Virus record (IMG/VR): IMGVR_UViG_3300013005_000163
Location: 1 to 24,503 of that record
Length of the DNA: 24,503 bases
Origin: a virus
Reading direction: 5' to 3' (one strand)
The position numbers and the translations under genes are program-made. How positions within the stretch are numbered: the first letter of the stretch is position 1; every line of letters starts with the position of its first letter. The notes below the pieces were generated by a model. It had not been told where the DNA came from, ran no database searches, and was given only the letters and a program-made list of their open reading frames with translations. Positions 4,758 through 23,671 of this stretch are shown here, one piece after another.

Positions 4758-5440
4758 AACTCTTGTTTCCAGTTTGTTAATGGAGATAACCATTGAGTTT
4801 CTCCGTGTGTTGAATAACCAGGTAAAGATGAAGCTAAACGTTTACCTTTTTGTCTTAATTCTGCAAACATATTAAAATCATATGGATATGTTTCACTAGT
4901 CCATTTTCTTAATATGCCTTCATCTTCTTTTAATGTTTTCACTTTAGAAGCGAATGTCATTGTTGTACTATTTGTTAGCTTAAAATGACAATGTTGTCCT
5001 AAATATAATCTAGTTTCTTCGGATCTTCCGCCGCATAATAAATTTCCTCCTTCAAATGGATTTAAATACTTGTCTGGATGGTCATAAGTTGTAACATAAT
5101 CAAATCCTAATTCAAATCCGTCTTCAATTATTTTATCTGCTTCTGGTTTATGTAAATAGTCATTTTCTAAAAAATAAACTATTTCATTGTCAGGTAAGTT
5201 TAAGGCATAATCTAATGCTAAATTAAAAGTACCTGCGCCATGTCCTACATTAACATATTTTATTTCTTTATTTGATTGGGTTATTAAAGACTTAGTTTCA
5301 TCACCTACATTATCAGCGATAATTAACCAATCAGCCTTATTAAACGTTCTTAAAGCGTTTATAAAACAATTTTTATTGTTAATGTAGTCAGGCTTCTCTT
5401 TTTTATATCCTGTATCGCTTATACGATAAATAACAAACAT
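4754..5440 (-). CDS. Putative GT-A glycosyltransferase
   Basis: 228 aa. The N-terminal half has a GT-A layout: an opening strand (F-V-I-Y-R-I-S-D-T), a W-L-I-I-A-D-N strand (38-44), a G-H-G-A-G-T-F-N-L-A-L segment (66-76) that would contact the nucleotide, and V-Y-F-L-E-N-D-Y-L (88-96), where E-N-D occupies the place of the metal-binding DxD motif. The second half (Y-V-T-T-Y-D-H-P-D-K-Y, then S-T-H-G-E-T-Q-W near 210-217) is family specific, and I cannot name a precise family. The start at 5440 overlaps the upstream stop by one base (TAATG) and its stop overlaps the next gene (ATGA), so the three enzymes are probably made together. The acceptor is unknown. Confidence 0.75.
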   Translation of the reverse strand: MFVIYRISDTGYKKEKPDYINNKNCFINALRTFNKADWLIIADNVGDETKSLITQSNKEIKYVNVGHGAGTFNLALDYALNLPDNEIVYFLENDYLHKPEADKIIEDGFELGFDYVTTYDHPDKYLNPFEGGNLLCGGRSEETRLYLGQHCHFKLTNSTTMTFASKVKTLKEDEGILRKWTSETYPYDFNMFAELRQKGKRLASSLPGYSTHGETQWLSPLTNWKQEL

Positions 5441-8109: not shown

Positions 8110-11100
8110 TTATGTTGATCGTTTTGCAGGTGCAATTTCAGGACAAACTTCTTGTAACAAGAACTTGAACACCTTACATGAATTATTATTGTATAAGAAT
8201 AGATCGTTTTCACCTTCTACAATTGTATAGTTACCTATACCGTTGTTTAATGATAAGTCAGATGTGTATACTGTACACCATCTATATGATGATGAACCTA
8301 AATCTTTTGTTCCGTTTGTTGGATTACCTACACCATCTATTGGTAAAACACTATTAGGACCAAACCCAATACCTACATTATTTCCGTTTGCTGCATTATC
8401 ATATATTGCTGCAGTAGCATAAACTGTTCTTGAATTAAGAATCATTGTACCTGTTATACCAATATTACCTGCATTTCCATTTAGTGAAATTACTTCTGTT
8501 CCACTATTATTAAACAGTGATGCACCAACGGCATTATTACTGTAATTTTGGTAAACTATAAATCTACTACATACACAAGTACCATTTAAGCGAAAATCAC
8601 CACCAGCAACATTTAATCTTGTACTTGGAGATGAAGTACCTATACCAACATTTCCTCCAATTGGTTGTAGTAAAATATCTTTTACTCCAAAATCGTTACT
8701 ACCAGGTCCACTATTATCATAAGAACCTTGAATCCAAGGATGGTAGTTATATCCTTCTGAACCTACACCAAATTGAAGGCTATTAGTTGCGTTGGTTCCT
8801 TGTATTCTAAATATTGCTGTACTATTGGTAAAATCATTGCTTGGACATGAATTGATTGCTCCTGCTACAACAGCAGCACCTAAACTATTTGTTCCCCCAT
8901 CATACCTTTCAGGCAAGTTTACAGTTAGCCTATTTTGAGGACTTGTATTGTTTATACCTACATTCCCTGAAAATATAGCTGTTGGGGCACAAACAGTGCA
9001 AGCAAAACAAGCAACTCCACTTTCAAATATTCTTGCTTTAACACTTACTGATGCTGTACCTCCCTCATCTGCTGTTCCTGTGGCAAATGAAAAACCAGCA
9101 TTATATCCGGATCTAGTACCTCCTTGGAATATTAATTCACCATATTGATTAAATGGGAAAGTTCCTGAACCATCATTTGGAAATCTTTCACTGTAATATA
9201 TATAAGGAATAGCAGCAACAGAAGTTACAAAACATCCTCTAACTCCAGCTTTTAAAGGTCCTTCTAAATAACATGAAGCTCCTACATAAGTAGAACATAA
9301 TTGAGGAGTACACACTTGACAAGCAAAACATGCTATACCAGAATTAAACATTTTTAAATCTTGGTATACAGCTGTTGGTGATGTTATAGTTCCTGCAAAT
9401 CTACCTAACCAGGTAGATATACTACCATCTGTACCAGAACAAGCACCTACAAAGCCTGTAGAAAAATTAAAATATTTCATTAAACCATGTCTACTAGCAA
9501 CATCAACAATAACTCCAGAACAATCTGTTGCTACTGTCATTGATGTACCTGTAATTGAGCCTCCTCTAAATGAAGGAGCACAAACTTGGCAAGCAAAACA
9601 AGCTATACCATCACTTGTAATATCAAATCTTCTACTACCACTAGTGTAGAATATCATTGGTGTAGCTGACTTGTTATTAATTAATGCATTTTCACTACTA
9701 TCACTTTCAATAACAAATTTATTACCATTACCATTATTTCCTAATGCAATTAAAGAGCCAAAATTATTACCACCAATTACTAATTGTTGTCTGCATCCAC
9801 TAAGAGCAGTACCAGTACCAATAAGAAGACTACATCCTCCTGTAGGCTGTAATAATAAGTTATAGGCTGTAGCGCCATCATCAAAACGCATTGCTTGCAT
9901 CCATGTTGGTCCTGTTGGATCAACACCTATATTTAATCCGTAATTTCCGTTATTTGAACTTATAATCAAACCATCTCTTGCACATCCTACAGCTGGAACT
10001 CCATCATTTGATGATTGTTGAACATGTAAAGTGCTTCTTGGAGATGCTGTTCTAACACCAACACAACCACCATTATTTAGTACTAATACAGCACCATTAT
10101 TAATAACAGTCATATCACAGTTAGTACTTCTAAATCTTAATTGGTTAGGACCAAAATCGATAAATGAGTTTTGGGTGCCGTGTGATAAAAGATCTAATTC
10201 TGAAGATCCATTTGATGCTGTTGCTTGAATTCTTAAACCAGCATTACTATTGTTTACAATGTGTAAATTAGTAGCTGGGGCAGTTGTTCCTATGCCTATA
10301 CAGCCTCCTAATGGGTTTAATAATAAGTTATAATATATTGCTCCACTATAATCACCTGCTTGTATATATGTTGGGTATCCATTTCCTCCTGCTGAGAAAT
10401 TAGATACACCAATTCTGCCATAAATGTCTCCACCATCTGTTACTACTATACCATTTGTTGTGTTTGTATGTGTTGGGATTGATGTTGGTAATCCTGAGCT
10501 GAATTCAGCTTTTGTTCTTGGAGTTCCTGTACCTACACCAAGGCATCCACTAACTATAGAGGCACCTGTAACTACAGAAACAGGAGCACATACTTGACAA
10601 GCAAAACAAGCTATACCACCGCTTGTTATGCGCATACGTTCGGTATTTCCAGTTTTGAGAATTAAAGCAGAACTAACAGTAGGACCTATTAAAAAGTTTC
10701 CCGTTCCTCTATCTACATAAGCATCATTATAAACTGTGCCATCAAGTCTCCATCTTACATAAGCATCTCCTGTTGTTGCAGAATTAATAGATAATCCTGT
10801 TTGTCCGCCACCAAGGGTCAATGGATCTGTTGGTGATGTAGTACCTATACCTACACATCCACTAAACAATCCAGTAGGAGCACAAACAGCACCATTAGTG
10901 CAAAAAGTACCTCCATGAGTGAATATACCATTTGAATCAATAGAACCATCTGCTTTAATACCAATCCAGTTTGTAATTCCACTATTTACAATAAACATGC
11001 CGCTTGAAGCAGGTGCTTGTAACCAAGATGAATTTGCATATGGGGATGCGGATGCTTTACCTATTAAGCGAGCACAATTTGAATCAAATGTTGGAGAACA

Positions 11101-12816
11101 AACAGTGCAAGCAAAACAAGCTATGCCTGCTGCAAATAAAGTTAATTTAGGAACATTAGTTCCTCCAGCATCTATAAGGAAATTTAATGAGTTACTATTT
11201 GCTAATGACGAACCAATTGCAAGTCCCCAACTATTACCATAAGCACCTAATTGAAGTCCAGCGTAAGCAGAACCACTATCGGCTTGGTTATCTATTCTTG
11301 CCCAAGTATAAGCATTTTGGTCTTTTCTAGCATGTAATAATTGGGTTGGTGATAGTGTTCCTATACCAACATCTCCTGATAGAAATGATATAGTATTTGT
11401 TCCAGTAGGGTTAACAATCATTGCATTTTCCGCCGCTGAATAAATTGAAAAGTCATATACAGTAGCTGTTTTTGCTCTTAATATTAAACCTCTAGCATCA
11501 TTATAGCTTACTGTACCTTGTGTTGTATATGCGTTTGTTGTGGCAACAAAATTATTAGAAAGAGATGTTACACTACTAGCAAAGCAAGCAGCACCACTAG
11601 AACTAATAAAACTATTGTTATAGAAACATGTTCTAGACCCATCTTCAAATATACCTGAAGACGTCATATGGTGCATTCCATTTCCTTTAGAAAGGAAATT
11701 ACAGCTAATACCTGGTTCGTTTCCTAAAACGCCTGAGTTTCTAGGTCCTACTAGGAATACAGCTGAATCATAAGTTGATCCTGATGGATTAGAATAAATC
11801 CACTGATTGTCTTCACTGTCCCATAACATTGAACCTGTTAGTCCAGTAGAGCCAGAGTCATAAACTGCTAAACCACCAAAACGTATTGTTGGTGTATCTG
11901 TGTTCACAGTTATAATGTTAGTGCCTATGTTAAGTTGGGATGATGTTATATACTGAACACTTTGAGTGCCAAATATAGTGACATTATTAAAGTAAGAAGT
12001 TCCACTTACATACATGTCTTTAGTTACTCTTAAACCACCATCTGTATAAAGCGAGGCTGTTGAAGTAAAAGAAATAGCATTGTTTGCAGCACTAATGTAT
12101 TGAGTATTGACAAATGTATTTGAACCTGTTGTGGCATAAGATCCTGTCTTAGAAGATAAAGCCGCAACACCAACTAAAGCAGCTGTTGCAGTTGATGAAA
12201 CACAGTTTACAGTTGCGTCATTAGATGATGTATAACTGTTGAATGAACTAGTAAGAGTGTATGATCCAGTTCTGGATGTTAGAGTAGCTATAGATGCTAA
12301 AGCTAATGCTGTTGAAGCAGCTACACTAGTTACAGTTGCATTGTTTGATGAAGTGTAACTATTGAATGAGTTTATAGGTGTAAAAGCACTACTATCTAAA
12401 CCATCTAATAATTCTGCATTTGCGGCATATGAAGATGTGATTGCAAATGATGATGTGTTTATCTGAGTAGCAGGGCTAACATAAGACGCGGTAATAGCGA
12501 AAGATGCCGTATTAATTTGTGTAGCAGGGCTAACATACGATGCTGTGATAGCAAACGAGGATGTTATTACAGTGTTATTATAATCAACAGTTGAAGCATA
12601 AGAAGAAGTTACAGCAAATGACGCTGTATTAATTTGTGTGTTAGGGCTTACATATGATGCTGTAGTTGCAAATGAAGCTGAATCAACAGAACCAGTTAAG
12701 GCACCAATGATAGGGCCAGTTACAGTTAATGATCCTGTTATTGTAACATTTCCAAACTGGTTTAATGAACCTGAAGCAGCGTATGAACCACTTATAATAG
12801 GGCTATCTATAATCAT
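8110..12816 (-). CDS. Giant cysteine-rich tail-fibre-like protein A
   Basis: 1568 aa. The N-terminus has an 18-aa tandem repeat (47-132), then a stretch shared with fibre B (about 220-400). The body is built of fibre repeats of the type G-N/C-V/I-G-I-G-T-x-S/A-P and R-M-R-I-T-S. The cysteine strand G-I/V-A-C-F-A-C-x-V-C-A/S/T-P occurs at about residues 564, 734, 1070, 1160 and 1267, with degenerate copies near 408 and 637. By my count there are 41 Cys. The C-terminus (1505-1568) carries the conserved phage fibre ending Y-T-S-D-L-S-L-N-N (13-21 of that segment), I-V-E-G-E-N-D-L-F-L-Y, and Q-E-V, here with Cys at 1547 and 1558, positions where I recall Gly or Lys and Asp/Glu in other phages. 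Likely trimeric receptor-binding fibre. Start at 12816 is 23 nt after an octamer; no Shine-Dalgarno sequence. Confidence 0.88.
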   Translation of the reverse strand: MIIDSPIISGSYAASGSLNQFGNVTITGSLTVTGPIIGALTGSVDSASFATTASYVSPNTQINTASFAVTSSYASTVDYNNTVITSSFAITASYVSPATQINTASFAITASYVSPATQINTSSFAITSSYAANAELLDGLDSSAFTPINSFNSYTSSNNATVTSVAASTALALASIATLTSRTGSYTLTSSFNSYTSSNDATVNCVSSTATAALVGVAALSSKTGSYATTGSNTFVNTQYISAANNAISFTSTASLYTDGGLRVTKDMYVSGTSYFNNVTIFGTQSVQYITSSQLNIGTNIITVNTDTPTIRFGGLAVYDSGSTGLTGSMLWDSEDNQWIYSNPSGSTYDSAVFLVGPRNSGVLGNEPGISCNFLSKGNGMHHMTSSGIFEDGSRTCFYNNSFISSSGAACFASSVTSLSNNFVATTNAYTTQGTVSYNDARGLILRAKTATVYDFSIYSAAENAMIVNPTGTNTISFLSGDVGIGTLSPTQLLHARKDQNAYTWARIDNQADSGSAYAGLQLGAYGNSWGLAIGSSLANSNSLNFLIDAGGTNVPKLTLFAAGIACFACTVCSPTFDSNCARLIGKASASPYANSSWLQAPASSGMFIVNSGITNWIGIKADGSIDSNGIFTHGGTFCTNGAVCAPTGLFSGCVGIGTTSPTDPLTLGGGQTGLSINSATTGDAYVRWRLDGTVYNDAYVDRGTGNFLIGPTVSSALILKTGNTERMRITSGGIACFACQVCAPVSVVTGASIVSGCLGVGTGTPRTKAEFSSGLPTSIPTHTNTTNGIVVTDGGDIYGRIGVSNFSAGGNGYPTYIQAGDYSGAIYYNLLLNPLGGCIGIGTTAPATNLHIVNNSNAGLRIQATASNGSSELDLLSHGTQNSFIDFGPNQLRFRSTNCDMTVINNGAVLVLNNGGCVGVRTASPRSTLHVQQSSNDGVPAVGCARDGLIISSNNGNYGLNIGVDPTGPTWMQAMRFDDGATAYNLLLQPTGGCSLLIGTGTALSGCRQQLVIGGNNFGSLIALGNNGNGNKFVIESDSSENALINNKSATPMIFYTSGSRRFDITSDGIACFACQVCAPSFRGGSITGTSMTVATDCSGVIVDVASRHGLMKYFNFSTGFVGACSGTDGSISTWLGRFAGTITSPTAVYQDLKMFNSGIACFACQVCTPQLCSTYVGASCYLEGPLKAGVRGCFVTSVAAIPYIYYSERFPNDGSGTFPFNQYGELIFQGGTRSGYNAGFSFATGTADEGGTASVSVKARIFESGVACFACTVCAPTAIFSGNVGINNTSPQNRLTVNLPERYDGGTNSLGAAVVAGAINSCPSNDFTNSTAIFRIQGTNATNSLQFGVGSEGYNYHPWIQGSYDNSGPGSNDFGVKDILLQPIGGNVGIGTSSPSTRLNVAGGDFRLNGTCVCSRFIVYQNYSNNAVGASLFNNSGTEVISLNGNAGNIGITGTMILNSRTVYATAAIYDNAANGNNVGIGFGPNSVLPIDGVGNPTNGTKDLGSSSYRWCTVYTSDLSLNNGIGNYTIVEGENDLFLYNNNSCKVFKFLLQEVCPEIAPAKRST
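9567..9609. repeat. Exact 43-nt repeat, copy in fibre A
   Basis: Identical base for base with 16075-16117 in fibre B. It encodes the cysteine strand A-C-F-A-C-Q-V-C-A-P-S-F in the same frame in both genes. Ten further related 35-nt copies, less exact, occur in the three fibre genes. A good seed for recombination between the two genes. Confidence 0.9.
10622..10643. repeat. Exact 22-nt fibre repeat, copy 1
   Basis: Encodes the R-M-R-I-T-S part of the fibre repeat. The same 22 nt occur at 21501-21522 and 22047-22068 in fibre C. They contain the palindrome ATGCGCAT. Each of these three copies is followed on the coding strand by a strand of the fibre: the cysteine strand here, G-C-V-G-I in the second and G-G-V-V-L in the third. 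Confidence 0.85.
11678..11727. repeat. Exact 50-nt repeat with an inverted repeat, copy in fibre A
   Basis: Identical to 16995-17044 in fibre B, inside a larger region (about 11620-12160 and 16925-17470) that is similar in protein but has many silent differences. Within it TTTCCTTT-AG-AAAGGAAA (11681-11698) is a perfect inverted repeat that could extrude as a short hairpin. The flanks differ at synonymous sites, which makes this conserved core stand out. Confidence 0.9.
12421..12678 (-). repeat. Tandem 18-aa repeat in the N-terminal region of fibre A
   Basis: Units of the form S-F-A-I-T-A-S-Y-V-S-P-A-T-Q-I-N-T-A (18 aa, 54 nt) recur about five times at residues 47-132. Two units are near-identical in protein but differ at several silent bases, so they are not a fresh slippage product. 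The segment is Ser/Thr/Ala-rich, beta-like, and ends in A-E-L-L-D-G-L-D-S, which is also present in the upstream partial fibre gene. Confidence 0.8.
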
Positions 12817-12839
12817 CTCTTAAATTAGGTTATTCCTGT

Positions 12840-12847
12840 ATAAATAT
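12840..12847 (-). promoter_or_regulatory. Intergenic ATATTTAT motif before fibre A
   Basis: Coding-strand context is TTGTAATATTTATACAGGAAT, ending 23 nt before the ATG at 12816. It sits between imperfect inverted arms AATTAGGTT (12823-12831) and AATCCTAATT (12856-12865), which may be coincidental. Promoter role is inferred; it would drive the fibre A, small gene, LamG, LamG unit. Confidence 0.5.
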
Positions 12848-12863
12848 TACAAAGAAATCCTAA

Positions 12864-13046
12864 TTATTCAACGGCCGTTACAGGATTTGATATTTTGCAA
12901 AGATTATTTGGATATAGTTCTTGCACACTAGGAAAAGCAGTTTCTGCTTCTTCTAGTGTGGTATAAACGTATTCCGGATCTTCAGCATTTAGTTTTGCCA
13001 CCCAGATTTCAGCCCCAGGCATAAATTGTTTTAAAATGTAAAACAT
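12864..13046 (-). CDS. Small hypothetical protein before fibre A
   Basis: 60 aa: M-F-Y-I-L-K-Q-F, then a strand, an acidic middle (N-A-E-D-P-E-Y-V-Y-T-T-L-E-E-A-E) and Y-P-N-N-L-C-K-I near 45-52. The segment 'Y-x-T-x-E-E-A' followed by an amphipathic helix is common in small phage proteins, but I recognise no family. The start is 3 nt past the stop of the 138-aa gene at 13050, so the two are co-transcribed. It ends 47 nt before the fibre A start. No signal peptide, membrane segment or repeats. Confidence 0.7.
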   Translation of the reverse strand: MFYILKQFMPGAEIWVAKLNAEDPEYVYTTLEEAETAFPSVQELYPNNLCKISNPVTAVE

Positions 13047-13049
13047 TTA

Positions 13050-13466
13050 TTAAACAGTTGGAGTTGTTGATGGAGTTGGAGTCACTGATGGTGAAGGTAC
13101 TTCTGGACTTGGACTTGGAGATGGTACTAACCAAGGAGCAGTTAAATTAATTGTTGGAGGATTAATTTGATTCTCGATTTGAGTAGCTAAGTTAGCATAC
13201 ATTCTATCAACACTTCCTGTGTCGTAAGCGTTTATAGCATTTACTACCCATCCTTGTACTTGTTCTTTTGTTAAATCTTCGAACGGAGTAAATGAACCTG
13301 TACCTAATGGTCCTACCATTTGTGTACCAATACTACCAGCAGTGTATGAACCAGTGGTTGCATATAATTGCCAATGTACGTTGAATACTACGTCGGTTTG
13401 GCCTGACTCTGTTGGGTAGCATTCTAATGGGTTGAAGTTCCAGTTGTAAGTGATATCTAATGACAT
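13050..13466 (-). CDS. DUF7936-like phage protein with Pro/Ser/Thr tail
   Basis: 138 aa. The first 110 residues match a phage family I recall as DUF7936: Y-N-W-N-F-N-P-L-E-C-Y-P (7-18), then Q-T-D-V-V-F-N-V-H-W-Q-L (23-34), and T-P-F-E-D-L-T-K-E-Q-V-Q-G-W-V (60-74), ending with a helix containing N-I-N-P-P-like residues. The family is common beside phage fibre genes, with no established role that I know. Unlike typical members it ends with a low-complexity tail of P-S-P-S-P-S, P-E-V-P and T-P-T-P-S-T (about 112-138), probably unstructured, reminiscent of O-glycosylated or surface-exposed linkers. Starts 22 nt after the octamer at 13489. It leads the small gene and fibre A. Confidence 0.8.
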   Translation of the reverse strand: MSLDITYNWNFNPLECYPTESGQTDVVFNVHWQLYATTGSYTAGSIGTQMVGPLGTGSFTPFEDLTKEQVQGWVVNAINAYDTGSVDRMYANLATQIENQINPPTINLTAPWLVPSPSPSPEVPSPSVTPTPSTTPTV

Positions 13467-13488
13467 TGTGTTTGTTTTATTGTTTATT

Positions 13489-13496
13489 ATAAATAT
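13489..13496 (-). promoter_or_regulatory. Intergenic ATATTTAT motif before the DUF7936-like gene
   Basis: Coding-strand context is TAATAATATTTATAATAAACA, ending 22 nt before the ATG at 13466 in the 32-nt gap after the stop of fibre B. Promoter role is inferred. Confidence 0.5.
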
Positions 13497-13498
13497 TA

Positions 13499-16400
13499 TT
13501 AAATTATTTGTTTTAAGAAAATTGTAGTACCATCACCTGTAGCTGATGAATTATATCCATTTATTTTAAATCTAATTGTGTAGGTTCCACCTAAGCCAAT
13601 ACTTGAATATTCAGCACCACTATAGAACATACAAACGTTTACTGTCAAATTACCACCACCAGATCCATATAAAGATCTTGGAGGTGTACTTCTTTGACAC
13701 CAAAATATATAATCAGTAACAGCAGCTCCACTAAATCCAGTACCTATAAGTAAATCTCCGTAGTAAAAATCAGCATATGCTCCAGATCCAGCTCCGTTGG
13801 GGTTTGCTACAATTGCTACTTCGTACAATGCAGCACCACTTCGTGTTACTGTATTAAATATAGCGTTTCCTGTACCTGATCCTCCATTTAATGTGGAAAA
13901 ACTTGCTCCTTGATATCCTCTAGCAGTCACTATACCACAATGGCAAGCACCACCATTATAATCAAAGCAGTGTTTAGTATTATAATTATCCGCTGACCAT
14001 TGTAATAAGTATGGAACACAATTATTGTGGTTTATCCATTGAATATATCCACCTGTTGACCAGTTAAATTCCATTCTTAAAGCACCTCCATCACACCAAT
14101 AAGGAGTAGCACATTGAGTTCCAGCTCCCATATTACCCATAGTGTGGGTTCCTGAAAGTATAGATCCATTACATGCTGTTAAGAAATTATATCCAAAGTT
14201 TGAACAATAAGTTCCATTGCAGTTAAATATAGTATTACCATTTGTATCTATTGATAATCTAGCACAGTTAAAATGACCAGTATATAATCTAAAATTATCT
14301 TTAGAAAAATATTGACCTGGATTTTCAGCTGCTTCAACTAATACATGGTCTAGATAAGTACAAGTTATACCTGATCGGTAATCTAGTGCTCTAGCTTCAA
14401 ATACATCTCCAGGACTAGATATAGTAAAAGGTATATTAATATATTGATAACAACCACTAGTACAGAAAGTATTTGCTGAGACGTTCATACCAGATCCTCT
14501 ATTAGTATCTAAATAAAATAAAGTTGATCTACATGAGTTATTATCTACTTTCATTCTGAATTTAGCTACATAAGAGCCTGGTGTTAAATAACTATATGGG
14601 CCATAGAAAAATGTACTTGAGGCATTAATATTTGCTACTTTAGCACAACCATAAGTTGCAGCTCCATCTACTACAATACATTGGTTTGCAGAGCCATTTG
14701 CTAATTGCCAATGGTTAATTGTATAAAATCTTTGAACACAAGTGTTTAGGTGGATTCTAGAAGAACTAAGTATAATATTTTCTTGACTAGTACCAACAAT
14801 AATTCCGGGAGCGCAAACTGTATTTGAAAAGCAAGTCACACCTGTAGGAGAAATGCTCATTCTAGTAACGGGTGCTGTACCACCAGCCATTGTCTTAAAC
14901 ATAATAACGCCAGCGTTTGTAGCAGAAACATCTTGTCCCGCTTCAATTACTGCCATTGGGTCAGTAGCATTGTAATAAGCCCAGAAATTTATAAGACTTG
15001 TGCTATATGTGTTAGGCCAGTTATTTTCTAAATTTAAAGTGTTTTGAGCACCATTATACACTCCAGTTAAATGAAGTCTACCATATGGGGTTGAAGTCCC
15101 TATACCAACATTTGATGATGCGTTAACAATCAAAGCAGTACTATTAGCTATTCTAAGTTGTATTGTACAATCACTTTGGGGAAATAAACCTGTTGATACA
15201 GCACCAGAATTTACATATCCATATCCGTTTTGTACCCAAACACTTCCTCCAATTTGATATGTTACACCGTGAACGTTAAGAGCAAAAGCACAATATGAGC
15301 CACCTATTGTTACGTTACCTGCAAAACAAGAAGTACCATTTACTTCTAATTTGTAGTTTGGAGTTGTGGTACCTATACCTACACATCCTGCAAAATAAGA
15401 CGCACCACCAGCTGAATATAAAGCATAATTTACACTAGAACCATTTGTTTGGTTTGCTATATATAAACCATAGTTATTAGTTATAGATGCCCCAGATAGT
15501 AGTTCACTATTAACTATATATACTCCAAAAGCGTTTGTTGTTGCTGTTGAAGCTTTAATTCTAGCATTAGCAAGTAATCCATAATTATTAGTTCCTGACA
15601 ATTGAGGATCTAGTAGTAATGCATATTGATTTGATCCGCATGTTAATGCCCCACCAATAAAAACACTAGCATAATATTGATCTGATGCACCAACTGATAA
15701 TCTACAATCTGATATTAAAATATCTCTAAATCTACCTGTTCCTCCTGAGCAAATACTTGCTCCACAAACTAATGTTGATCCATAAATTGTAGTACCACTA
15801 ACTGTACCCCCTGCAAATATTGAAGCACAAACAGTACCAGAAAAAGTAGATATACCTGTTCCACTATTTACTCTAAAATATTCAGTTGTACCAGCATTAT
15901 TTGTAACACTTAATAAAGGATAGTTATTTGCTGGAGATGAAGCGTCTTTAACTCGTAATCCATAAGGTGTTGAATTTGCTGTGTTTGTAAATTCAGCAAC
16001 AAAATCAGTACTTGCTTGGGTTACTGATAATTTACCTGTGAAGGTACCACTAGTACCTGATACTGTTCCTCCTGTAAATGAAGGAGCACAAACTTGGCAA
16101 GCAAAACAAGCTATACCTGCGGATGTTATACGCATTTTTTCGGTACTTGTTGCTCCAAAAGCAGTGTAAAATCTTAAATCAGAATAATCAACTCCCGGTC
16201 CACTATAAGACCTGATTTCTCCACCATAATCTATATATGTGTTACTACCAGCAGTTGAATACATAGCTATTCTTCCATATAAAATACCAGAACCTCCAGA
16301 TTCATTGTTATTAGCTATTCCTAATACAGCCCCACTTGAAGCTGCAATTTCAGTAAGCCTATTTGGCGATTGAGTACCTATACCTACGTTACGACCACAT

Positions 16401-18052
16401 GTTAAAGTCATTATATTACCTACACCTACTAAATCAAAATATAAATTATTTGCATATCCTGAAGCAGCACTATTACCGCCAATTCCTATTTGGTAATTTC
16501 TACCAGATGTTCCATTATTTATTAAATCAATAAATGTAAAACCTGTTGTTGAATTTGTTGCTGCAACTAAACTTGCATTCGCAGTTGATGAAATTGTTAC
16601 ATTTCCTGTTGCCGTTACACTACAAGCAAAACATGCTATTCCAGTACTAGAAAATGTTAATCTGTTCTGGCTATTAGATCTTACATTAAATGGATGGTTT
16701 GTAATAGTTCCTATATAACCAGCAGCTGAATCATTGGTGAATGTAGATCCAACACCTGATGTTTCACAGAGTATGTATGCTGGAGAACTATTACCTCTTA
16801 CTGCTATGCCATCTGAAGAAACTTCAGAAGCATCTATTGTTAATCTTTTAAAAGGAGTAGTAGTATTAATACCAATACAGCTTGCATTAGCCATTGTAGT
16901 GCAAACAGTGCCACTTGAACTTACAACTGTATTTCCATAGAAACAAGTTCTAGAACCGTCTTCAAAAATACCACTTGATGTCATGTGATGAAGACCATTT
17001 CCTTTAGAAAGGAAATTACAGCTAATACCTGGTTCGTTTCCTAACACTCCCGAATTTCTAGGGCCAACCAAAAACACCGCTGAATCATATTCAGAACCAC
17101 TAGGATTAGAATAAATCCACTGGTTGTCTTGTGAATCCCACAACATTGATCCAGTCAATCCTGTTGATCCACTATCATAAACAGATAAACCACCAAAACG
17201 AATGCTTGGTGTATCTGTGTTTACATTAATAATGTTTGTACCAATGTTAAGCTGAGAAGATGTTATATATTGTACACTTTGAGTGCCGTAAATTGTTACG
17301 TTATTAAAATATGAAGTACCACTTACATATAAGTCTTTAGATACTCTAACACCTCCATCTGTATAGAGTGAGGCAGTTGAAGTAAATGAAAAAGAATTAT
17401 TAGCAGCACTAATATATTGAGTATTTACAAATGTATTTGATCCTGTAGTAGCATAACTACCTGTTTTAGAATTAAGAGATGTAATGTTACTTTCATTACT
17501 TGTTACTCTTGTACTAAAACTACCTGAAGCTGTCTCTAAATTAGTTGTACGAGTAGAGAAAGAACCTGAAGCAGTTTGTAATGAAGAAATATTAGATTCA
17601 TCTGTTGTTAATCTTGAAGCAAATGAAGAACTATTATTTGTAATAGTATTTTCATCTGTTGTTAATCTTCCTGTTACAGAACTACTTAAAGATGTTAATT
17701 CAGCATCTGTTGCGAAAGTAGAATCTAAACTAGAACTAAAACTTTCTAAACTAGATACACGAGTTGAAAAAGAAGAAGACGCATTTATTAATGATCCACT
17801 AGTTGTTTCTAACGAAGATAAACGATTATTTTGAGTAGTATTTATTGAATCATTACTCGCGGTATATGTTAGAATACTCGAGCTAAACGTTTGTAAAGCG
17901 TTTATATTTGTATTATTACTGCCTGTGTATATGTTTATTGAAGAAGAGAATGAGTTTAAAGCACCAATTGATACTTCTGAACCAGTAATGTCACCAATAT
18001 CTATACCATTTAATGTTAGTGAACCTGTTACTTGTGCGTTATGTATTAACAT
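13499..18052 (-). CDS. Giant cysteine-rich tail-fibre-like protein B
   Basis: 1517 aa. Residues 1-75 are Ser-rich; 76-197 form a repeat region with S-F-S-T-R-V-T-x-L-E-T-A-S-G units; about 198-380 are shared with fibre A (TGSNTFVNTQYISAANN, then S-Y-F-N-N-V-T-I, and G-I-S-C-N-F-L-S-K-G-N-G). The body has G-x-V/I-G-I-G-T/N-x-S/T-P and R-M-R-I-T-S repeats. The cysteine strand appears in full at about 646, with two Cys at 471 and a variant (V-T-C-F-S-N-T-V-C-A-P) at 1071. My count is 41 Cys, about half of them in the last 500 residues, including pairs such as C-H-C and C-x-x-G-C. The ending (about 1390-1517) is another beta-rich domain with I-F-W-C and F-L-K-Q-I-I. Likely a trimeric fibre. Start at 18052 is 19 nt after an octamer. 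Confidence 0.88.
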   Translation of the reverse strand: MLIHNAQVTGSLTLNGIDIGDITGSEVSIGALNSFSSSINIYTGSNNTNINALQTFSSSILTYTASNDSINTTQNNRLSSLETTSGSLINASSSFSTRVSSLESFSSSLDSTFATDAELTSLSSSVTGRLTTDENTITNNSSSFASRLTTDESNISSLQTASGSFSTRTTNLETASGSFSTRVTSNESNITSLNSKTGSYATTGSNTFVNTQYISAANNSFSFTSTASLYTDGGVRVSKDLYVSGTSYFNNVTIYGTQSVQYITSSQLNIGTNIINVNTDTPSIRFGGLSVYDSGSTGLTGSMLWDSQDNQWIYSNPSGSEYDSAVFLVGPRNSGVLGNEPGISCNFLSKGNGLHHMTSSGIFEDGSRTCFYGNTVVSSSGTVCTTMANASCIGINTTTPFKRLTIDASEVSSDGIAVRGNSSPAYILCETSGVGSTFTNDSAAGYIGTITNHPFNVRSNSQNRLTFSSTGIACFACSVTATGNVTISSTANASLVAATNSTTGFTFIDLINNGTSGRNYQIGIGGNSAASGYANNLYFDLVGVGNIMTLTCGRNVGIGTQSPNRLTEIAASSGAVLGIANNNESGGSGILYGRIAMYSTAGSNTYIDYGGEIRSYSGPGVDYSDLRFYTAFGATSTEKMRITSAGIACFACQVCAPSFTGGTVSGTSGTFTGKLSVTQASTDFVAEFTNTANSTPYGLRVKDASSPANNYPLLSVTNNAGTTEYFRVNSGTGISTFSGTVCASIFAGGTVSGTTIYGSTLVCGASICSGGTGRFRDILISDCRLSVGASDQYYASVFIGGALTCGSNQYALLLDPQLSGTNNYGLLANARIKASTATTNAFGVYIVNSELLSGASITNNYGLYIANQTNGSSVNYALYSAGGASYFAGCVGIGTTTPNYKLEVNGTSCFAGNVTIGGSYCAFALNVHGVTYQIGGSVWVQNGYGYVNSGAVSTGLFPQSDCTIQLRIANSTALIVNASSNVGIGTSTPYGRLHLTGVYNGAQNTLNLENNWPNTYSTSLINFWAYYNATDPMAVIEAGQDVSATNAGVIMFKTMAGGTAPVTRMSISPTGVTCFSNTVCAPGIIVGTSQENIILSSSRIHLNTCVQRFYTINHWQLANGSANQCIVVDGAATYGCAKVANINASSTFFYGPYSYLTPGSYVAKFRMKVDNNSCRSTLFYLDTNRGSGMNVSANTFCTSGCYQYINIPFTISSPGDVFEARALDYRSGITCTYLDHVLVEAAENPGQYFSKDNFRLYTGHFNCARLSIDTNGNTIFNCNGTYCSNFGYNFLTACNGSILSGTHTMGNMGAGTQCATPYWCDGGALRMEFNWSTGGYIQWINHNNCVPYLLQWSADNYNTKHCFDYNGGACHCGIVTARGYQGASFSTLNGGSGTGNAIFNTVTRSGAALYEVAIVANPNGAGSGAYADFYYGDLLIGTGFSGAAVTDYIFWCQRSTPPRSLYGSGGGNLTVNVCMFYSGAEYSSIGLGGTYTIRFKINGYNSSATGDGTTIFLKQII
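16075..16117. repeat. Exact 43-nt repeat, copy in fibre B
   Basis: Identical to 9567-9609 in fibre A, in the same reading frame, with unlike flanks on both sides. It encodes the full three-cysteine strand plus the next residues A-P-S-F. Confidence 0.9.
16995..17044. repeat. Exact 50-nt repeat with an inverted repeat, copy in fibre B
   Basis: Identical to 11678-11727 in fibre A. The inverted repeat TTTCCTTT-AG-AAAGGAAA is at 16998-17015. It encodes the I-S-C-N-F-L-S-K-G-N region. Confidence 0.9.
17462..17827 (-). repeat. Ser/Thr-rich repeat region in fibre B N-terminal part
   Basis: Residues about 76-197 repeat units such as S-L-E-T-x-S-G-S, S-F-S-T-R-V-T and T-D-E-S-N-I-S-S, of about 14-17 residues each, ending in N-I-T-S-L-N-S-K-T-G-S-Y. 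The same units occur in the upstream partial fibre gene (about 23870-24020). The pattern of hydrophobic residues could form a triple coiled coil. Confidence 0.75.
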
Positions 18053-18071
18053 CTGTTATGACTTGTTTTGT

Positions 18072-18079
18072 ATAAATAT
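18072..18079 (-). promoter_or_regulatory. Intergenic ATATTTAT motif before fibre B
   Basis: Coding-strand context is AAAAATATTTATACAAAACA, ending 19 nt before the ATG at 18052 in the 29-nt gap after a LamG gene. Promoter role is inferred. Confidence 0.5.
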
Positions 18080-18081
18080 TT

Positions 18082-18783
18082 TTAAATTCCAAAACGTTTA
18101 CGTTGGACTGTGTAATTTTGTAATATTTCTGATGGTGATAATACTCTATTATAAATAGAAATACTACCTATAGTTCCAGCCCAATATGAGTAAATATTAC
18201 CATTATCCATAAATGAACCTACTGAAAAGTCATTAGTTCCTATTCCCCACCCTCCATATCCATCTTCTTGTGTTAAAGAAATAGATGTGTTGTCAATATA
18301 TCCTCCTAATATAGAATCATTTCTTGTAATAACTACATTATGCCAATTTCCATTCACTAATTGGGTTTGGTTTGAGGATGCTCTTCTATTATTAGCTTTA
18401 GTTTCAGTACTTATTTGAAAATGACTGTAATCACTTCTAATATCTAAAAATAACATTCTTGACGAAGAATCTGAAATCCAAAATGGTCCTCTATGAGCTA
18501 CAGTGCTTACAGAATCTTTAATCCACATATTAATTGTACAATATTGTATACTTGTAATATTAGTACTTGTATTATTTCCATAATCGTTAGTTCCATCAAA
18601 TATAAGATTACCACCGTTGGCACTATTAAAAGTTGGACCATTAGCTAAAGTTATATTACGTCCATAACCGCTTGTATCACTCCAAGTAGTACCACTACCA
18701 GGATATGAATTTATATCAGCAGCGTCTAGAGATAATGATAACCCTAATGTTACTATTTGTCCATGTCCATATTGTATAGCCAT
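18082..18783 (-). CDS. LamG/concanavalin-like jelly-roll protein 3
   Basis: 233 aa, one LamG-type domain with a short N-terminus: L-S-L-S-L-D-A-A-D-I-N-S-Y-P-G-S (15-30), G-T-T-W-S-D-T-S-G-Y (31-40), N-G-P-T-F-N (48-53), G-N-L-I-F-D-G-T-N-D-Y (58-68). The middle holds the strands with N-M-W-I-K and N-G-N-W-H-N-V-V-I-T-R typical of the fold, and the end is I-Y-N-R-V-L-S-P-S-E-I-L-Q-N-Y and K-R-F-G-I. Its start is 4 nt past the stop of the small TFVKY gene at 18788. It lies before the fibre B unit. Glycan recognition is inferred, not shown. Confidence 0.85.
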   Translation of the reverse strand: MAIQYGHGQIVTLGLSLSLDAADINSYPGSGTTWSDTSGYGRNITLANGPTFNSANGGNLIFDGTNDYGNNTSTNITSIQYCTINMWIKDSVSTVAHRGPFWISDSSSRMLFLDIRSDYSHFQISTETKANNRRASSNQTQLVNGNWHNVVITRNDSILGGYIDNTSISLTQEDGYGGWGIGTNDFSVGSFMDNGNIYSYWAGTIGSISIYNRVLSPSEILQNYTVQRKRFGI

Positions 18784-18787
18784 AACT

Positions 18788-19111
18788 TTATTCTGTTGGT
18801 GGAATTAAAATCCATTCATTATTAGATAATATTACTAAAATTTGTTCATGTGTGTATTCTGATCCTGAAGGATAAATATCAGGACGACCATACACTCCAG
18901 CTTCTATAGTAATAGATTGAGATTGATGTGAGATAGGATCATACCAGCTTTGTGTGTATGAAGCTGTAACATCATTTATGTTATATTTTACAAATGTCTT
19001 AGTACCATCTATTGATAGTCTAAGAGTAGATGTATCATATTCTAATAACTGATTATAGTTAAGTGATCCTGTTATTGTTGTAGGTATAATTAAGTAGCGT
19101 GTTTCTATCAT
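18788..19111 (-). CDS. Small fibre-cluster protein, TFVKY family, copy B
   Basis: 107 aa, paralogue of the gene at 7854-8108 but 23 residues longer. It shares the R-Y-L-I-I opening strand, L-S-I-D-G-T-K-T-F-V-K-Y (about 32-43), and Y-T-H-E-Q-I-L-V-I-L-S-N-N-E-W near the end. The added middle part (Y-T-Q-S-W-Y-D-P-I-S-H and R-P-D-I-Y-P-S-G) is absent in copy A. The ATG overlaps the stop of the LamG/CBM gene (ATGA). It precedes a LamG gene by 4 nt, the same arrangement as copy A. An octamer ATAAATAT (plus strand 18872-18879) occurs inside its coding region, probably by chance. Function unknown. Confidence 0.8.
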   Translation of the reverse strand: MIETRYLIIPTTITGSLNYNQLLEYDTSTLRLSIDGTKTFVKYNINDVTASYTQSWYDPISHQSQSITIEAGVYGRPDIYPSGSEYTHEQILVILSNNEWILIPPTE

Positions 19112-20310
19112 ATTCCAAAGCGTTTTTTATATGCTAAATAGTTTTGTTGTACTTGAGCAGCTGATAGGGTTTCACTATACATTCTAAAAATAGGTATGTC
19201 ACCAAGAAGGCTACCGCCATTACCTAAACCAATATTTAAACCATCTGTTGTTGTGGGTGTACCAGCTGTACCTGTGCCTGCTAAAGATCCATTTATGTAC
19301 ATAGCAGCACTTCCTCCATTTCCACTCACTGTACCAACAACGTGATACCAGTTTCCTGCTGTCACATAACTAGAAATAGGAGCTAAGGCGACTGATCCTC
19401 CCCAAGAGGCGCCATAAGAAAAAGTAAAGTTATTGTATATAAATTGCATTGATATACCTGTATCTCCATTCCAGTTTCCTGATTTTTGCCAAATGCTTCT
19501 AAATGTATTTGAAGCTGGAATTGAGGCAGGTCTGAAAACCATTTCGTAGCTTTTATTTGTTATAGGAGAATTAGCGTGGGCTACAGGTATATAATCGTTT
19601 GATCCATCAAATGTTGGAACAGATGCTGTTGTAAAAGATACATTACTCATATCTAAAGAAGCATTATACCCACTTATATCAAATAATGAATTTGTTACTG
19701 AGCGGGTGGATGTTGATCCTACAGTAGATATGTATTGAGTAGCATATGATTTTTGTTCTACTTGTCCTCCCCATACATCTACTTTTTGTCCACTATTGTT
19801 ATTTCCATATCCTATATAAGGAACTACTCCAAATTGCATTTGGTTTATGCCTGAGGATGGAGATGTTACTGTGATTTGAAATCGTCTCCATTCTGTTGTT
19901 GATAGCATAGCTACACTTACATTAAGTACTCCTGTATAACTAACTAAAGTTCCATTCAATCCAAAAGCAGAATATAAATCTACACCAGTTCCTGTCAAAC
20001 TAACATTTTTTAACCAAACAGAAAATGTGTAAACTGTACTAGTTGAAGCTGAGATAGTCTTAGTATATCTAGAATATCCATTTCCTAATCTATTTCCAGT
20101 TAAAGTACCATCAGGAGCATAAGATGCATTTAAGGTAACATCACTATTAATCCAGTTACTAAATAGATTACCCGTCCATTCATCAAAATTTTGACTATAT
20201 AAAGCTAAATTAGTAGTTGGTTCTCCTAAATATGAGTTTTTAACATCTGCCATATCATAAGCAAATCTTAAGCCTAATAAAGATGTTCCTGGTCCGTTTT
20301 TAATTGCCAT
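19108..20310 (-). CDS. LamG protein 4 with an inserted CBM-like domain
   Basis: 400 aa. Residues 12-32 (L-G-L-R-F-A-Y-D-M-A-D-V-K-N-S-Y-L) match the opening of the other LamG proteins. About 35-207 are a second jelly-roll-like domain: N-L-A-L-Y-S-Q-N-F-D-E-W (34-45), A-P-D-G-T-L-T-G-N-R-L (65-75), Y-T-F-S-V-W-L-K-N (94-102), W-R-R-F-Q-I-T-V-T (141-149), V-D-V-W-G-G-Q-V-E (177-185). This order is typical of carbohydrate-binding modules of the CBM4/9-like kind in phages. From about 208 the LamG pattern resumes (L-F-D-I-S-G-Y-N-A-S-L, then P-T-F-D-G-S-N-D-Y 232-240) and ends Q-N-Y-L-A-Y-K-K-R-F-G-I. So the CBM-like domain sits inside the LamG fold. Its ATG is 1 nt past the fibre C stop. Likely two glycan-binding surfaces; ligands unknown. 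Confidence 0.85.
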   Translation of the reverse strand: MAIKNGPGTSLLGLRFAYDMADVKNSYLGEPTTNLALYSQNFDEWTGNLFSNWINSDVTLNASYAPDGTLTGNRLGNGYSRYTKTISASTSTVYTFSVWLKNVSLTGTGVDLYSAFGLNGTLVSYTGVLNVSVAMLSTTEWRRFQITVTSPSSGINQMQFGVVPYIGYGNNNSGQKVDVWGGQVEQKSYATQYISTVGSTSTRSVTNSLFDISGYNASLDMSNVSFTTASVPTFDGSNDYIPVAHANSPITNKSYEMVFRPASIPASNTFRSIWQKSGNWNGDTGISMQFIYNNFTFSYGASWGGSVALAPISSYVTAGNWYHVVGTVSGNGGSAAMYINGSLAGTGTAGTPTTTDGLNIGLGNGGSLLGDIPIFRMYSETLSAAQVQQNYLAYKKRFGI

Positions 20311-20311
20311 A

Positions 20312-23300
20312 TTATAATGTATAGATATTATTATCGTTGTTTATTCCTTCAATTACGTAGTTTATTGTTGGAGCAGCTCCACTATAGGTTAATGTAACAT
20401 TAATTGTGTATGCTGGGCTGCCTCCATTATCATACGTTACAACTATATCGCTTACATTTCCAAAATTAGCTTCGGTTGTTGTACCCCCATTACTAGAACC
20501 ATATAGTGTTGTTATATCAGCAATAGCTGAACTACCATTTCCTGTTGATTGATTAGCCCAAACATAAACTCTAACTGAGTGGGTATGCCCAACATAAGCT
20601 ATTTTCTTAGCAGTTCCAGAGGAGGCAGCTGTTATTTGGCCAACAACTGTTTGTTTGTAAGTTCCACCACCGCCTTGTTTTATTGTAGATAAACGACTGT
20701 ATGTTGTAACCTCTCCTCCATTCATACTGATGCTAAATAATTCAGTTGTACTGGTAGTATTAGTACCAGACATTATTCTAAATCGATCTTGGAAGTTATC
20801 TAAGTGAGTAGCACAACTACAAGATGTTCCTTTTTGTAATACTAATTGACCTCCTTCTGATGTACCTCTAGCACCTAGATATAGATTAGCTTCAGTACTT
20901 GTTGATGTTGTACCTATAGCTACTACACTTCCTGTGATCATCATTGTAGAACCACTAACAGAACTATATGTACCTAATCTAACAGTATTATCAGCAAATG
21001 CTTCAATCACAGGTAAACCTGCTATTGTATTTACACTAAATAAACTATTAGTTAAATCATCGTCTACTGAGAATAGACGACCTGAAGTTCCATCTACTGC
21101 GAATATATTTGAGCCTGAACCTTCAAATATAACAGCGTCTGTTGAACCAGTGACATGGAGTTTAGATGTTGGGGCTGTAATACCTATACCTACATTACCT
21201 GCACTTGATAAGCGCATTCTCTCGGTAACTGCCCCACTAGCATTTCTTGTACCAAATGTTATTGCCATTGAACCACAAGATGTAGTTACACCGTTTATTG
21301 TTGCTAAACCGTTTCCACCACTAGGACCTTGTGCAACAAACATAATACCTGAAGTAGCACATGCTATAGTACTTGGATTAGATGTTCTAAACCATTGATT
21401 ACTTACTAATGTATTTGTAGGGTCATATGAAGAATTTATACAATTTTGTACATCCAATACTGATTGTGGATTATTTGTATTTATACCAACACAACCTGCG
21501 CTTGTTATGCGCATACGTTCGGCTGCATCTGAAGCAAAATATAAATAATTGCCATTATGATTATAAGCGACATATCCTCTATATCTATCCGCACCAGAAC
21601 TTCCATCAGCAAACATCAAAAATTGTTCCCCAGTTGTAGTAGTACTTGCAATAGTAATTCCTCCTTGGTCAATTGCTGATATAACTAATTCTTTAGAATA
21701 ATAGCTGCTTGGCGATGTGATACCTATACCTACGTTACCACCCGATGTGATTCTCATTCGTTCGGTTCCTGAAAAAGAATTTCCTTCGGTTAATCCTGCA
21801 TTTGTATAAAAAAGATGCTCTCCGTTATACTGCTGATATAAAGTTGCAGTTGTTTGAGTAGCTACCACTGCAGAACCGTTATAGTAAGCACCAGAACTTA
21901 AAATATTATTATTCCCATTTTCAGCAGTTGTCGTACTACTAAAATTAAATCCTGCTATGTTTGCTACTAATCCGCTTTTATTTTGTATATAAAAAGTAGG
22001 GCTACCACTAGAATTTGAAGTAGTTCCTATTAATACTACACCACCACTTGTTATGCGCATACGTTCGGAAATAAATCCTGTTCCAGAAGCTTTAGTATAA
22101 AAAGCTAATGCACCAGTAACACTATTTGGTGATCCTGCATGGGTTTCATTAATAGCACCCATAGCTGCAAGATTAATAAATTGGCTTGCATCTTGAAATC
22201 CTATTAATGATAAATTACCATTTGTAGCACTTTTATTTTGAATATTTAAAATACCTGGATTATAATTACTTCCTATACTTGTTGCAGTTAATGTATCTGC
22301 TATATTAGCTTTTACAAATACAGTTGATGTATTTATATTTAAACTATCTGCTGTTATGCTACAAGCAAATGTAGCTCCACCTGCACAAGCAAAAGTTAAA
22401 ACATCAGATGATATAACATCATTTCGTAAGATGAAATTACCGTTTGTATTTCCAATAAGTCTATATTGATTAGCACCACACAATCTAAAAGATTGATGGG
22501 TATAACTTCCAGCCCCAGCAACAAAATCTAAAACTAATTGTTCATTTATAGTTCCTTTAATTATAGAAGAAGGTGAACAAACTTGACAAGCGAAACAGGC
22601 TATACCTGTATTAGTAAAACGTAAACGTTCTAAACTATCGCATGTTACAAATCGTAAAGGAGTATTACTTGTAGTACCAATAGAAGTTTCTGTAACATTA
22701 GATGATATTGTAAAATGTCTTGTACCACCTTGACCCATATATAGTTGAGCTCCTCTACCTGCTGTAGCACCAGCATTTAATTGTAAAGACATGTTTTGAG
22801 TAGATCCTACACCTGCTGAAGATATACCAACATCAAATCCATCTCCTCTACCGAATATATCTGGGGTAGTAGTACCTATACCTAAATTACCATCTCCAGT
22901 TAAGACCATTCTTGTATTTGCGCCACCAGTTCCGTTTCTCCAAGTCCAAAGACCTGTATTAGAGGTTGCTCTATGATCAAAGAACATACCTGGAGAAGAG
23001 GCTCCAGTAGTGTATATTCCAAATTGTGCTCCTGATGCTGAATTAGTAAAACCTAATTCACCTGCTGTAAATGTAGAGCCCCCATTTATTAAAACTCCAG
23101 TATTAAAATACCCAGCTCCATTAACATCTAATTTATAAGCTGGTGAGGCAGAACCAATACCTACATTGCCTGAAGGATCAAGGCGCACATATTCAGTATT
23201 ATTAACATTAAATGTCATTCCACTAGAATCTGATGAATTGCCTCTTAAAAATCCAATATGGGTTACAGGATTACCACTAGTTCCATACCACATCCCAACT

Positions 23301-23671
23301 TTTGCATGCTCAGATGCTGTCCCACTACCAGATCCATTTGCAAATCCTGCTCTAAAGTTAGGATCTGAATTACCTCTGGTAAATAGAGATGTTATTAAAT
23401 TAACAGTTTGTGAAGGTTCAACTTGTAACAAAACTCCCGGACTTGTAGTACCTACACCAACATTTCCTAAAACATAGTGGTTTGAACCACTTACTTGAAG
23501 TGATCCTGTAAATTGTTGAGTGTTAGAAACACTATTTCCAAATATATTTGATCCACTAGAATATACAATAGACGAAGTAACTGTCTGTACAACAAGCGTT
23601 TGTGCTGTTATAGTACTTGTAGCTAATAAGCTACCTGTAATTGCTAATGATCCTGATAATTGTATTGGCAT
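20312..23671 (-). CDS. Cysteine-bearing tail-fibre-like protein C
   Basis: 1119 aa. The short N-terminus (M-P-I-Q-L-S-G-S-L-A-I-T-G-S-L) is followed by classic fibre repeats: G-N-V-G-V-G-T-T-S-P near 72-81 and repeated R-M-R-I-T-S and G-N-V-G-I-G-I-T-S-P. Cysteines are fewer (13 by my count). One full strand G-I-A-C-F-A-C-Q-V-C-S-P lies at about 356 and a degenerate copy A-T-F-A-C-S-I-T-A near 432. G-C-V-G-I-N occurs once in place of G-N-V-G-I. The C-terminal domain (about 1010-1119: K-I-A-Y-V-G-H-T-H-S-V-R-V, Y-D-N-G-G-S-P-A-Y, N-Y-V-I-E-G-I-N) is a beta domain with no Peptidase_S74-like Ser-Lys dyad that I can see. Start at 23671 lies 1 nt past the stop of the upstream fibre-like gene. Likely a trimeric receptor-binding fibre. 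Confidence 0.87.
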   Translation of the reverse strand: MPIQLSGSLAITGSLLATSTITAQTLVVQTVTSSIVYSSGSNIFGNSVSNTQQFTGSLQVSGSNHYVLGNVGVGTTSPGVLLQVEPSQTVNLITSLFTRGNSDPNFRAGFANGSGSGTASEHAKVGMWYGTSGNPVTHIGFLRGNSSDSSGMTFNVNNTEYVRLDPSGNVGIGSASPAYKLDVNGAGYFNTGVLINGGSTFTAGELGFTNSASGAQFGIYTTGASSPGMFFDHRATSNTGLWTWRNGTGGANTRMVLTGDGNLGIGTTTPDIFGRGDGFDVGISSAGVGSTQNMSLQLNAGATAGRGAQLYMGQGGTRHFTISSNVTETSIGTTSNTPLRFVTCDSLERLRFTNTGIACFACQVCSPSSIIKGTINEQLVLDFVAGAGSYTHQSFRLCGANQYRLIGNTNGNFILRNDVISSDVLTFACAGGATFACSITADSLNINTSTVFVKANIADTLTATSIGSNYNPGILNIQNKSATNGNLSLIGFQDASQFINLAAMGAINETHAGSPNSVTGALAFYTKASGTGFISERMRITSGGVVLIGTTSNSSGSPTFYIQNKSGLVANIAGFNFSSTTTAENGNNNILSSGAYYNGSAVVATQTTATLYQQYNGEHLFYTNAGLTEGNSFSGTERMRITSGGNVGIGITSPSSYYSKELVISAIDQGGITIASTTTTGEQFLMFADGSSGADRYRGYVAYNHNGNYLYFASDAAERMRITSAGCVGINTNNPQSVLDVQNCINSSYDPTNTLVSNQWFRTSNPSTIACATSGIMFVAQGPSGGNGLATINGVTTSCGSMAITFGTRNASGAVTERMRLSSAGNVGIGITAPTSKLHVTGSTDAVIFEGSGSNIFAVDGTSGRLFSVDDDLTNSLFSVNTIAGLPVIEAFADNTVRLGTYSSVSGSTMMITGSVVAIGTTSTSTEANLYLGARGTSEGGQLVLQKGTSCSCATHLDNFQDRFRIMSGTNTTSTTELFSISMNGGEVTTYSRLSTIKQGGGGTYKQTVVGQITAASSGTAKKIAYVGHTHSVRVYVWANQSTGNGSSAIADITTLYGSSNGGTTTEANFGNVSDIVVTYDNGGSPAYTINVTLTYSGAAPTINYVIEGINNDNNIYTL
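21501..21522. repeat. Exact 22-nt fibre repeat, copy 2
   Basis: Second copy of the 22-mer at 10622-10643, here in fibre C, encoding R-M-R-I-T-S before G-C-V-G-I-N. Confidence 0.85.
22047..22068. repeat. Exact 22-nt fibre repeat, copy 3
   Basis: Third copy, in fibre C, encoding R-M-R-I-T-S before G-G-V-V-L-I-G-T. Confidence 0.85.

Follow-up and report, generated by a model that had tools for sequence, protein, structure and literature searches.

Why should a phage fill its tail fibres, which determine which bacteria it infects and from which cysteine is normally almost absent, with that very residue? The question is raised by a stretch of 24,503 nt (24.5 kb; hereafter the window), positions 1-24,503 of the uncultured virus record IMGVR_UViG_3300013005_000163, which covers a portion of a myovirus tail locus: sheath and tube were recognised with PHROGs and Pfam, and LamG proteins and fibres accompany them. 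Three of its fibres, A, B and C, carry a recurring three-cysteine strand, G-[IV]-A-C-F-A-C-x-V-C, and a cassette of three genes, glycosyltransferase-like to varying degrees, adjoins fibre A. The strand proved to be a common tail-fibre strand with Thr and Ser exchanged for Cys, the cassette occurs together with cysteine-rich fibres in other phages, and one cassette enzyme is related to the GT9 glycosyltransferases. The reading proposed here, with a probability of about 0.4, is that Cys replaced Thr and Ser residues of the distal shaft to offer thiols that the phage itself modifies, probably through S-glycosylation by the adjacent cassette.

Cysteine-rich fibres of the window

The three fibre genes are:

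8110-12816, minus strand: fibre A, 1568 amino acids, 41 Cys, five CFACxVC strands
13499-18052, minus strand: fibre B, 1517 amino acids, 41 Cys, one CFACxVC strand and degenerate strands
20312-23671, minus strand: fibre C, 1119 amino acids, 13 Cys, one CFACxVC strand

Cysteine makes up 2.6-2.7% of fibres A and B, the other window proteins averaging 0.45%, and the 41 residues counted in each agree with the preliminary description of this DNA. The N-terminal part is free of cysteine over 204 residues in fibre A and 344 in fibre B. The strands listed below, complete or degenerate, hold 16 of the 41 cysteines in fibre A and 9 of the 41 in fibre B, the remainder being scattered through the distal fibre. 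A recoded cysteine codon was considered and rejected, since neighbouring proteins are sparing in cysteine and the use of TGT and TGC is normal. GNVGIGTTSP, RMRITS and GxATF strand repeats place the window fibres in the VGIG-repeat, T4-like family of long tail fibres, as does their position near sheath and tube genes in the tail locus of a myovirus. A Protein Data Bank (PDB) sequence search with the fibres gave no match, and a monomer prediction of a window fibre slice (AlphaFold, no alignment) was uninformative, with a predicted local distance difference test score (pLDDT) of 32. Some 200 residues (window 11570-12150; roughly 222-408 of fibre A) are near-identical in fibres A and B, pointing to a recent duplication or gene conversion.

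The strands and their degenerate forms, all on the minus strand, are:

8983-9018, minus strand: GVACFACTVCAP, fibre A
9304-9339, minus strand: GIACFACQVCTP, fibre A
9574-9609, minus strand: GIACFACQVCAP, fibre A
10582-10617, minus strand: GIACFACQVCAP, preceded by ERMRITS, fibre A
11092-11127, minus strand: GIACFACTVCSP, fibre A
16082-16117, minus strand: GIACFACQVCAP, preceded by EKMRITS, fibre B
22571-22606, minus strand: GIACFACQVCSP, fibre C
16607-16642, minus strand: GIACFACSVTAT, an eighth, incomplete ACFAC strand lacking the third Cys, fibre B
11560-11595, minus strand: degenerate strand GAACFASSVT
14807-14842, minus strand: degenerate strand GVTCFSNTVC
15302-15337, minus strand: degenerate strand GTSCFAGNVT
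15821-15856, minus strand: degenerate strand GISTFSGTVC
22346-22381, minus strand: degenerate strand GGATFACSIT

The seven complete strands had been noticed before and lie within one base of the positions then given; the eighth had been missed. They were also said usually to follow R-M-R-I-T-S, which is literally so in two of the seven, the others coming after RRFDITS, ERLRFTN, KLTLFAA, DLKMFNS or KARIFES. The exact pattern ACFACxVC stands in the fibres of just two further viral contigs, L030 and L037.

Exchange of threonine and serine for cysteine

The strand GIACFACQVCAP aligns with the common tail-fibre strand GxATFxSxVTA, with Cys in place of Thr4, Ser7 and Thr10. Among 40 strands from cysteine-rich fibres, Cys occupies positions +3, +6 and +9 in 70, 35 and 60% of cases, many strands retaining just one or two of the three; in 30 strands from cysteine-poor fibres the same positions hold Thr (53%), Ser (50%) and Thr (46%), and Cys in 0%. 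As the strand pattern read backwards also had no match, the strands are not a product of chance. Because the search pattern prescribed the core Phe (+4) and Val/Ile (+8), zero Cys is found there by construction; of the positions left free, the flanking hydrophobic ones (-4, -6) and, in the VGIG repeats, L (+11) and V/I (+13) hold 0-2.5% Cys. Into the VGIG repeats Cys enters at -2, -1, +5, +14 and -10. By strand alternation C4 and C10 fall on one face, and C7 on the opposite face or in a turn. The hydrophobic pattern suggests that the cysteines sit at exposed-type positions.

Rarity and a second fibre design

That tail fibres are normally poor in cysteine, as the preliminary description held, is borne out by 118 comparable open reading frames with G-N-V-G-I-G-T-x-x-P, whose median is 0.18% Cys and of which three exceed 1.5%. 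A search with G-C-V-G-I-G-T-x-x-P recovered more very cysteine-rich fibres, in contigs L144 (122 Cys in 1689 amino acids and 123 in 2349), L149 (171 in 3191 and 73 in 1688), L150 (97 in 2759) and L147 (67 in 2624). Among named viruses, Marine virus AG-345-L05 (MH319754, Kyanoviridae) has such a fibre, with 75 Cys in 2491 amino acids. The 209-kb contig L309 has G-x-A-C-F-xxx-[VIM]-C eight times, all on one strand, at 101-131 kb beside cassette and fibres, and the control pattern has no match there. None of the cellular genomes with GCVGIGT motifs is as cysteine-rich as the phages. Judged by these sequences, fibres rich in cysteine are uncommon and form a class found in environmental phages, reaching 7% Cys on two fibre designs, and no description of cysteine-rich tail fibres was found in the literature searched. 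A possible third cysteine-enriched design is the kelch-like repeat WSAGGALITAR...CTEEYNG of L263 (1-1479, minus strand), with Cys mostly just before TEEYNG.

The second design consists of 17-residue repeats resembling the YadA head and is present in L144, L149, L150 and AG-345-L05 and absent from the window fibres; the fold was assigned from the repeat pattern, database searches giving no confirmation. The giant repeat fibres of L144 (9849-14915) and L149 (5089-14661), with 122 and 171 Cys, had no Pfam match, and an L144 slice (AlphaFold monomer, no alignment) gave a weak model, with pLDDT 59 and no significant PDB fold match. In the repeats of L144, L149 and L150, for which the search pattern prescribed columns 0 to +4, Cys makes up 0-1% of the conserved A-L columns (+7, +8), left free by the pattern, and 13-25% of the variable columns -2, -1, +6, +9 and +10. 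Over 307 repeats, Cys pairs numbered 636 within a turn (641 expected), 318 with the next turn (303 expected) and 259 two turns apart (244 expected), with no partner columns. Composition, not geometry, appears to be under selection in these repeats. Cysteines placed so independently speak against disulphides or metal clusters built by design and fit modification sites.

A glycosyltransferase-like cassette

The cassette occupies 4011-6339:

5443-6339, minus strand: gene 1, GT9 (lipopolysaccharide heptosyltransferase-type) glycosyltransferase-like protein, 299 amino acids, phrog_8954
4757-5440, minus strand: gene 2, putative GT-A glycosyltransferase, 228 amino acids, conserved E-[ND]-D-Y motif in the alignment
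4011-4793, minus strand: gene 3, DUF5672 protein (Pfam PF18922, E 1e-29), 261 amino acids, glycosyltransferase-like by motif only

When compared by hhalign with Escherichia coli WaaC/F/Q/U, the gene 1 product scored a probability of 96 (E 6e-9); an unmatched GT8 control scored 0.2. It had no Pfam match and reached 15.7 bits against NCBIfam TIGR02193, below the cut-off of 185, and is for that reason called GT9-like, outside any named family. The gene 2 product had no match in Pfam, NCBIfam or the PDB; S-SRM01 and Mel-JY01 carry homologues of it within clusters annotated as glycosyltransferases. PDB sequence searches with the cassette proteins gave no match. A 78-amino-acid, zinc-ribbon-like protein with 6 Cys is encoded just upstream of the sheath, near the cassette, in L294-L296, L300, L304-L306 and L308.

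Co-occurrence of cassette and cysteine-rich fibres

Relatives were found with the sheath as query; it and a further tail gene are:

1150-2919, minus strand: tail sheath
6382-7137, minus strand: LamG/concanavalin-like accessory tail protein (Pfam PF13385)

Among isolates, Flavobacterium phage immuto has the most similar sheath (56%); its fibre locus resembles that of the window in layout, yet is cysteine-poor (0.35-0.5% Cys). Among the environmental relatives the cassette was first noticed in the cysteine-rich L045 and missing from the cysteine-poor L044 and L049, and the collection was then searched with the cassette genes alone. Ten loci with both cassette and fibre in view have cysteine-rich fibres (1.5-2.9% pooled): the window, L045, L301, L303, L304, L309, L310, L317, L318 and L330. 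Eight of these ten came from cassette-gene and not cysteine searches, including L310, which is the same contig as L030 and as such had also been matched by a cysteine pattern. The relatives without the cassette were cysteine-poor in 11 of 11 cases (L044, L046, L047, L049, L060, L069, L080, L104, L117, L124 and L274), but most contigs of the analysis are fragments, as are some of these eleven, and the cassette can be called absent with certainty only if a contig shows both fibre and sheath. L044, L047 and L049, with a sheath 99% identical to that of the window (98-99% for L044), all lack both cassette and cysteine-rich fibre. L037 is cysteine-rich with no cassette seen, and its contig starts inside its fibre. 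L322, an apparent cysteine-poor cassette locus, was dropped, as its reading frame was sheath.

Fibre-like proteins with 0-3 Cys (0-0.4%) lie beside the cassette in L309 (12919-15270) and L310 (7681-9765), where other fibres have 1-3%, so that not every fibre in a genome is converted. Homing-endonuclease-type genes (GIY-YIG/NUMOD) stand between fibre genes in L045 (4499-5026) and L155 (625-1230). In unrelated cysteine-rich loci GT34 or GT2 genes are neighbours. A general enrichment of glycosyltransferases by Pfam tallies (4-6 of 44 neighbours against 2 of 105) was suggestive but confounded by phage type, and was set aside in favour of the matched cassette comparison.

Named phage records with a GT9-like homologue

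Among 50,697 phage records a GT9-like homologue was found in two, AG-345-L05, already picked out by its 75-Cys fibre, and AG-345-O18 (L368, MH319759; 24% identity), and both encode very cysteine-rich proteins. In AG-345-O18 adjacent proteins with 73 Cys in 758 amino acids and 31 in 292 (10016-13157) lie between HldE-like genes and the GT9-like gene, and an additional 27-Cys protein is encoded near the latter; no other record of the phage collection has a homologue of the 73-Cys protein. Within a few kb of the GT9-like gene are also an HldE-like kinase (TIGR02198, E 4e-42) and an adenylyltransferase (TIGR02199, E 6e-29), both below curated cut-offs. A NodU-like carbamoyltransferase directly follows the GT9-like gene in AG-345-L05 (L367, 32500-34182) and AG-345-O18 (14925-16688), suggesting a carbamoylated sugar.

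Proposed explanation and alternatives

A GT9-like enzyme beside repetitive beta-strand fibres recalls TibC, the WaaC-like heptosyltransferase by which the beta-helical adhesins TibA and AIDA-I are hyperglycosylated (PMC4358343), and transfer to Cys has a precedent in the glycocin S-glycosyltransferases SunS and PalS, which attach S-linked glucose (PMC6405829); for these reasons the cysteines are here proposed as acceptor thiols for glycosylation by the phage. Thiol modification is favoured over a metal site or lock because the cassette tracks the cysteine-rich state. Fibres A, B and C would be of trimeric type, with outward Thr and Ser along the distal shaft changed to Cys, and the cassette enzymes would act on these thiols during assembly inside the host cell. 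Along the repetitive beta-strand rod, priming of the many exposed sites would fall to the GT9-like enzyme, as it does to TibC on its adhesins, and the putative GT-A enzyme and the DUF5672 protein would extend or vary the sugar. The resulting coat would benefit the phage by setting receptor specificity or by shielding the fibre. The fuller claim of an undescribed virion hyper-modification, in which dozens of Cys sites per chain are S-glycosylated to give hydrolysis-resistant, sugar-coated fibres, is more doubtful.

Several points weigh against S-glycosylation by the cassette. One cassette contig, L306, has a cysteine-poor fibre fragment (3/545), and the Fisher test of cassette against cysteine-rich state (p about 1e-4) is optimistic, as the contigs are related and not independent. 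The GT9-like gene alone was rejected as a marker, since L108, L119 and L263 have it without this kind of cysteine-rich fibre, and several cysteine-rich loci (L134, L132/L154, L149, L150) show no glycosyltransferase in view. Two of the three cassette enzymes are assigned as glycosyltransferases from motif or context alone, and neither HldE nor GmhA was found on cassette contigs, including the 209-kb one. Co-occurrence does not reveal the substrate, and the enzymes could act on host lipopolysaccharide or on Ser/Thr; fibre and cassette may merely travel together through joint transfer of a tail module.

The strongest alternative, itself rather unlikely, makes fibre and cassette linked cargo of one horizontally exchanged tail module, in which the enzymes modify either fibre Ser/Thr or sugars of the host surface, the latter perhaps as a means of excluding other phages, and the cysteines serve otherwise. 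Tail-fibre regions are recombination hot spots, and L044 and the window, with nearly identical sheaths, yet differ in both features; the three loci with a GT9-like gene and no such fibre also fit. Mere linkage is harder to reconcile with an association that extends to both phage-database records and holds in divergent backgrounds, with GT9 identities of 24-97% and fibres of different folds.

Next, and improbable, are disulphides: thiols oxidised after lysis would staple strands or chains into a rigid, protease-resistant fibre. The extracellular setting is oxidising, Cys reaches 7-10%, and C4 and C10, on the same strand face, co-occur 14 times against 9.8 expected, but the cysteines of the 307 YadA-like repeats are placed independently, and Cys number varies between relatives.

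The preliminary description had suggested that in a trimer each strand would bring together nine cysteines, as a cysteine-based metal site or a covalent lock, a proposal that gained no support, the cysteines taking polar Thr/Ser/Asn positions and those of the YadA-like repeats being unpaired. A fibre with rings of Cys coordinating Fe, Zn or Cu along the trimer, perhaps exploiting metal uptake receptors, is accordingly given little credence. Three close Cys per strand would suit it, and HxH iron fibres have been proposed for marine phages (PMC11705849), but the positions are of exposed rather than core type, many strands keep one or two of the three Cys, and HxH is absent from fibres A and B, with a single HTH in fibre C. 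Least likely are adhesive free thiols that bind host-surface disulphides, thiols or metals directly; the scattered, variable, exposed-type positions would fit them, but free thiols should be short-lived in oxic water, and they leave the cassette unexplained.

That Cys recurrently fills exposed positions, in two or more fibre designs and alongside a glycosyltransferase-like cassette, implies a virion-surface chemistry of which the literature searched gave no description. S-glycosylated cysteines would make this the first multi-site viral S-glycoprotein known to the authors and a source of new S-glycosyltransferases; if they form disulphides or metal sites instead, it would still be a new way to build a fibre.

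Comparison with known systems

The fibres of aquatic T4-like phages such as Flavobacterium phage immuto share the VGIGTTSP, RMRITS and ATF strand repeats, the LamG neighbours and the place upstream of the sheath, but contain 0-0.5% Cys and carry Thr/Ser where the window strands have Cys. The HxH iron fibre of T4 gp37 is likewise a long tail fibre of trimeric type with repeated residues able to bind metal, His there and Cys, at exposed-type positions, in the window. SunS and PalS offer a precedent for sugar transfer to protein Cys, although on a small peptide and at a single site (PMC6405829). TibC and AAH, of the BAHT family, have Ser as acceptor, and the predicted phage protein is shorter (299 amino acids), lacks, with its 2 Cys, the four-Cys iron finger that together with an N-terminal beta-barrel marks the BAHT enzymes, and would serve cysteine-rich fibres; common to both would be a GT-B, WaaC-like enzyme with many acceptor sites on a large repetitive beta-strand adhesin (PMC4358343), and the phage protein may be likened to TibC in its mode of action rather than classed as a BAHT.

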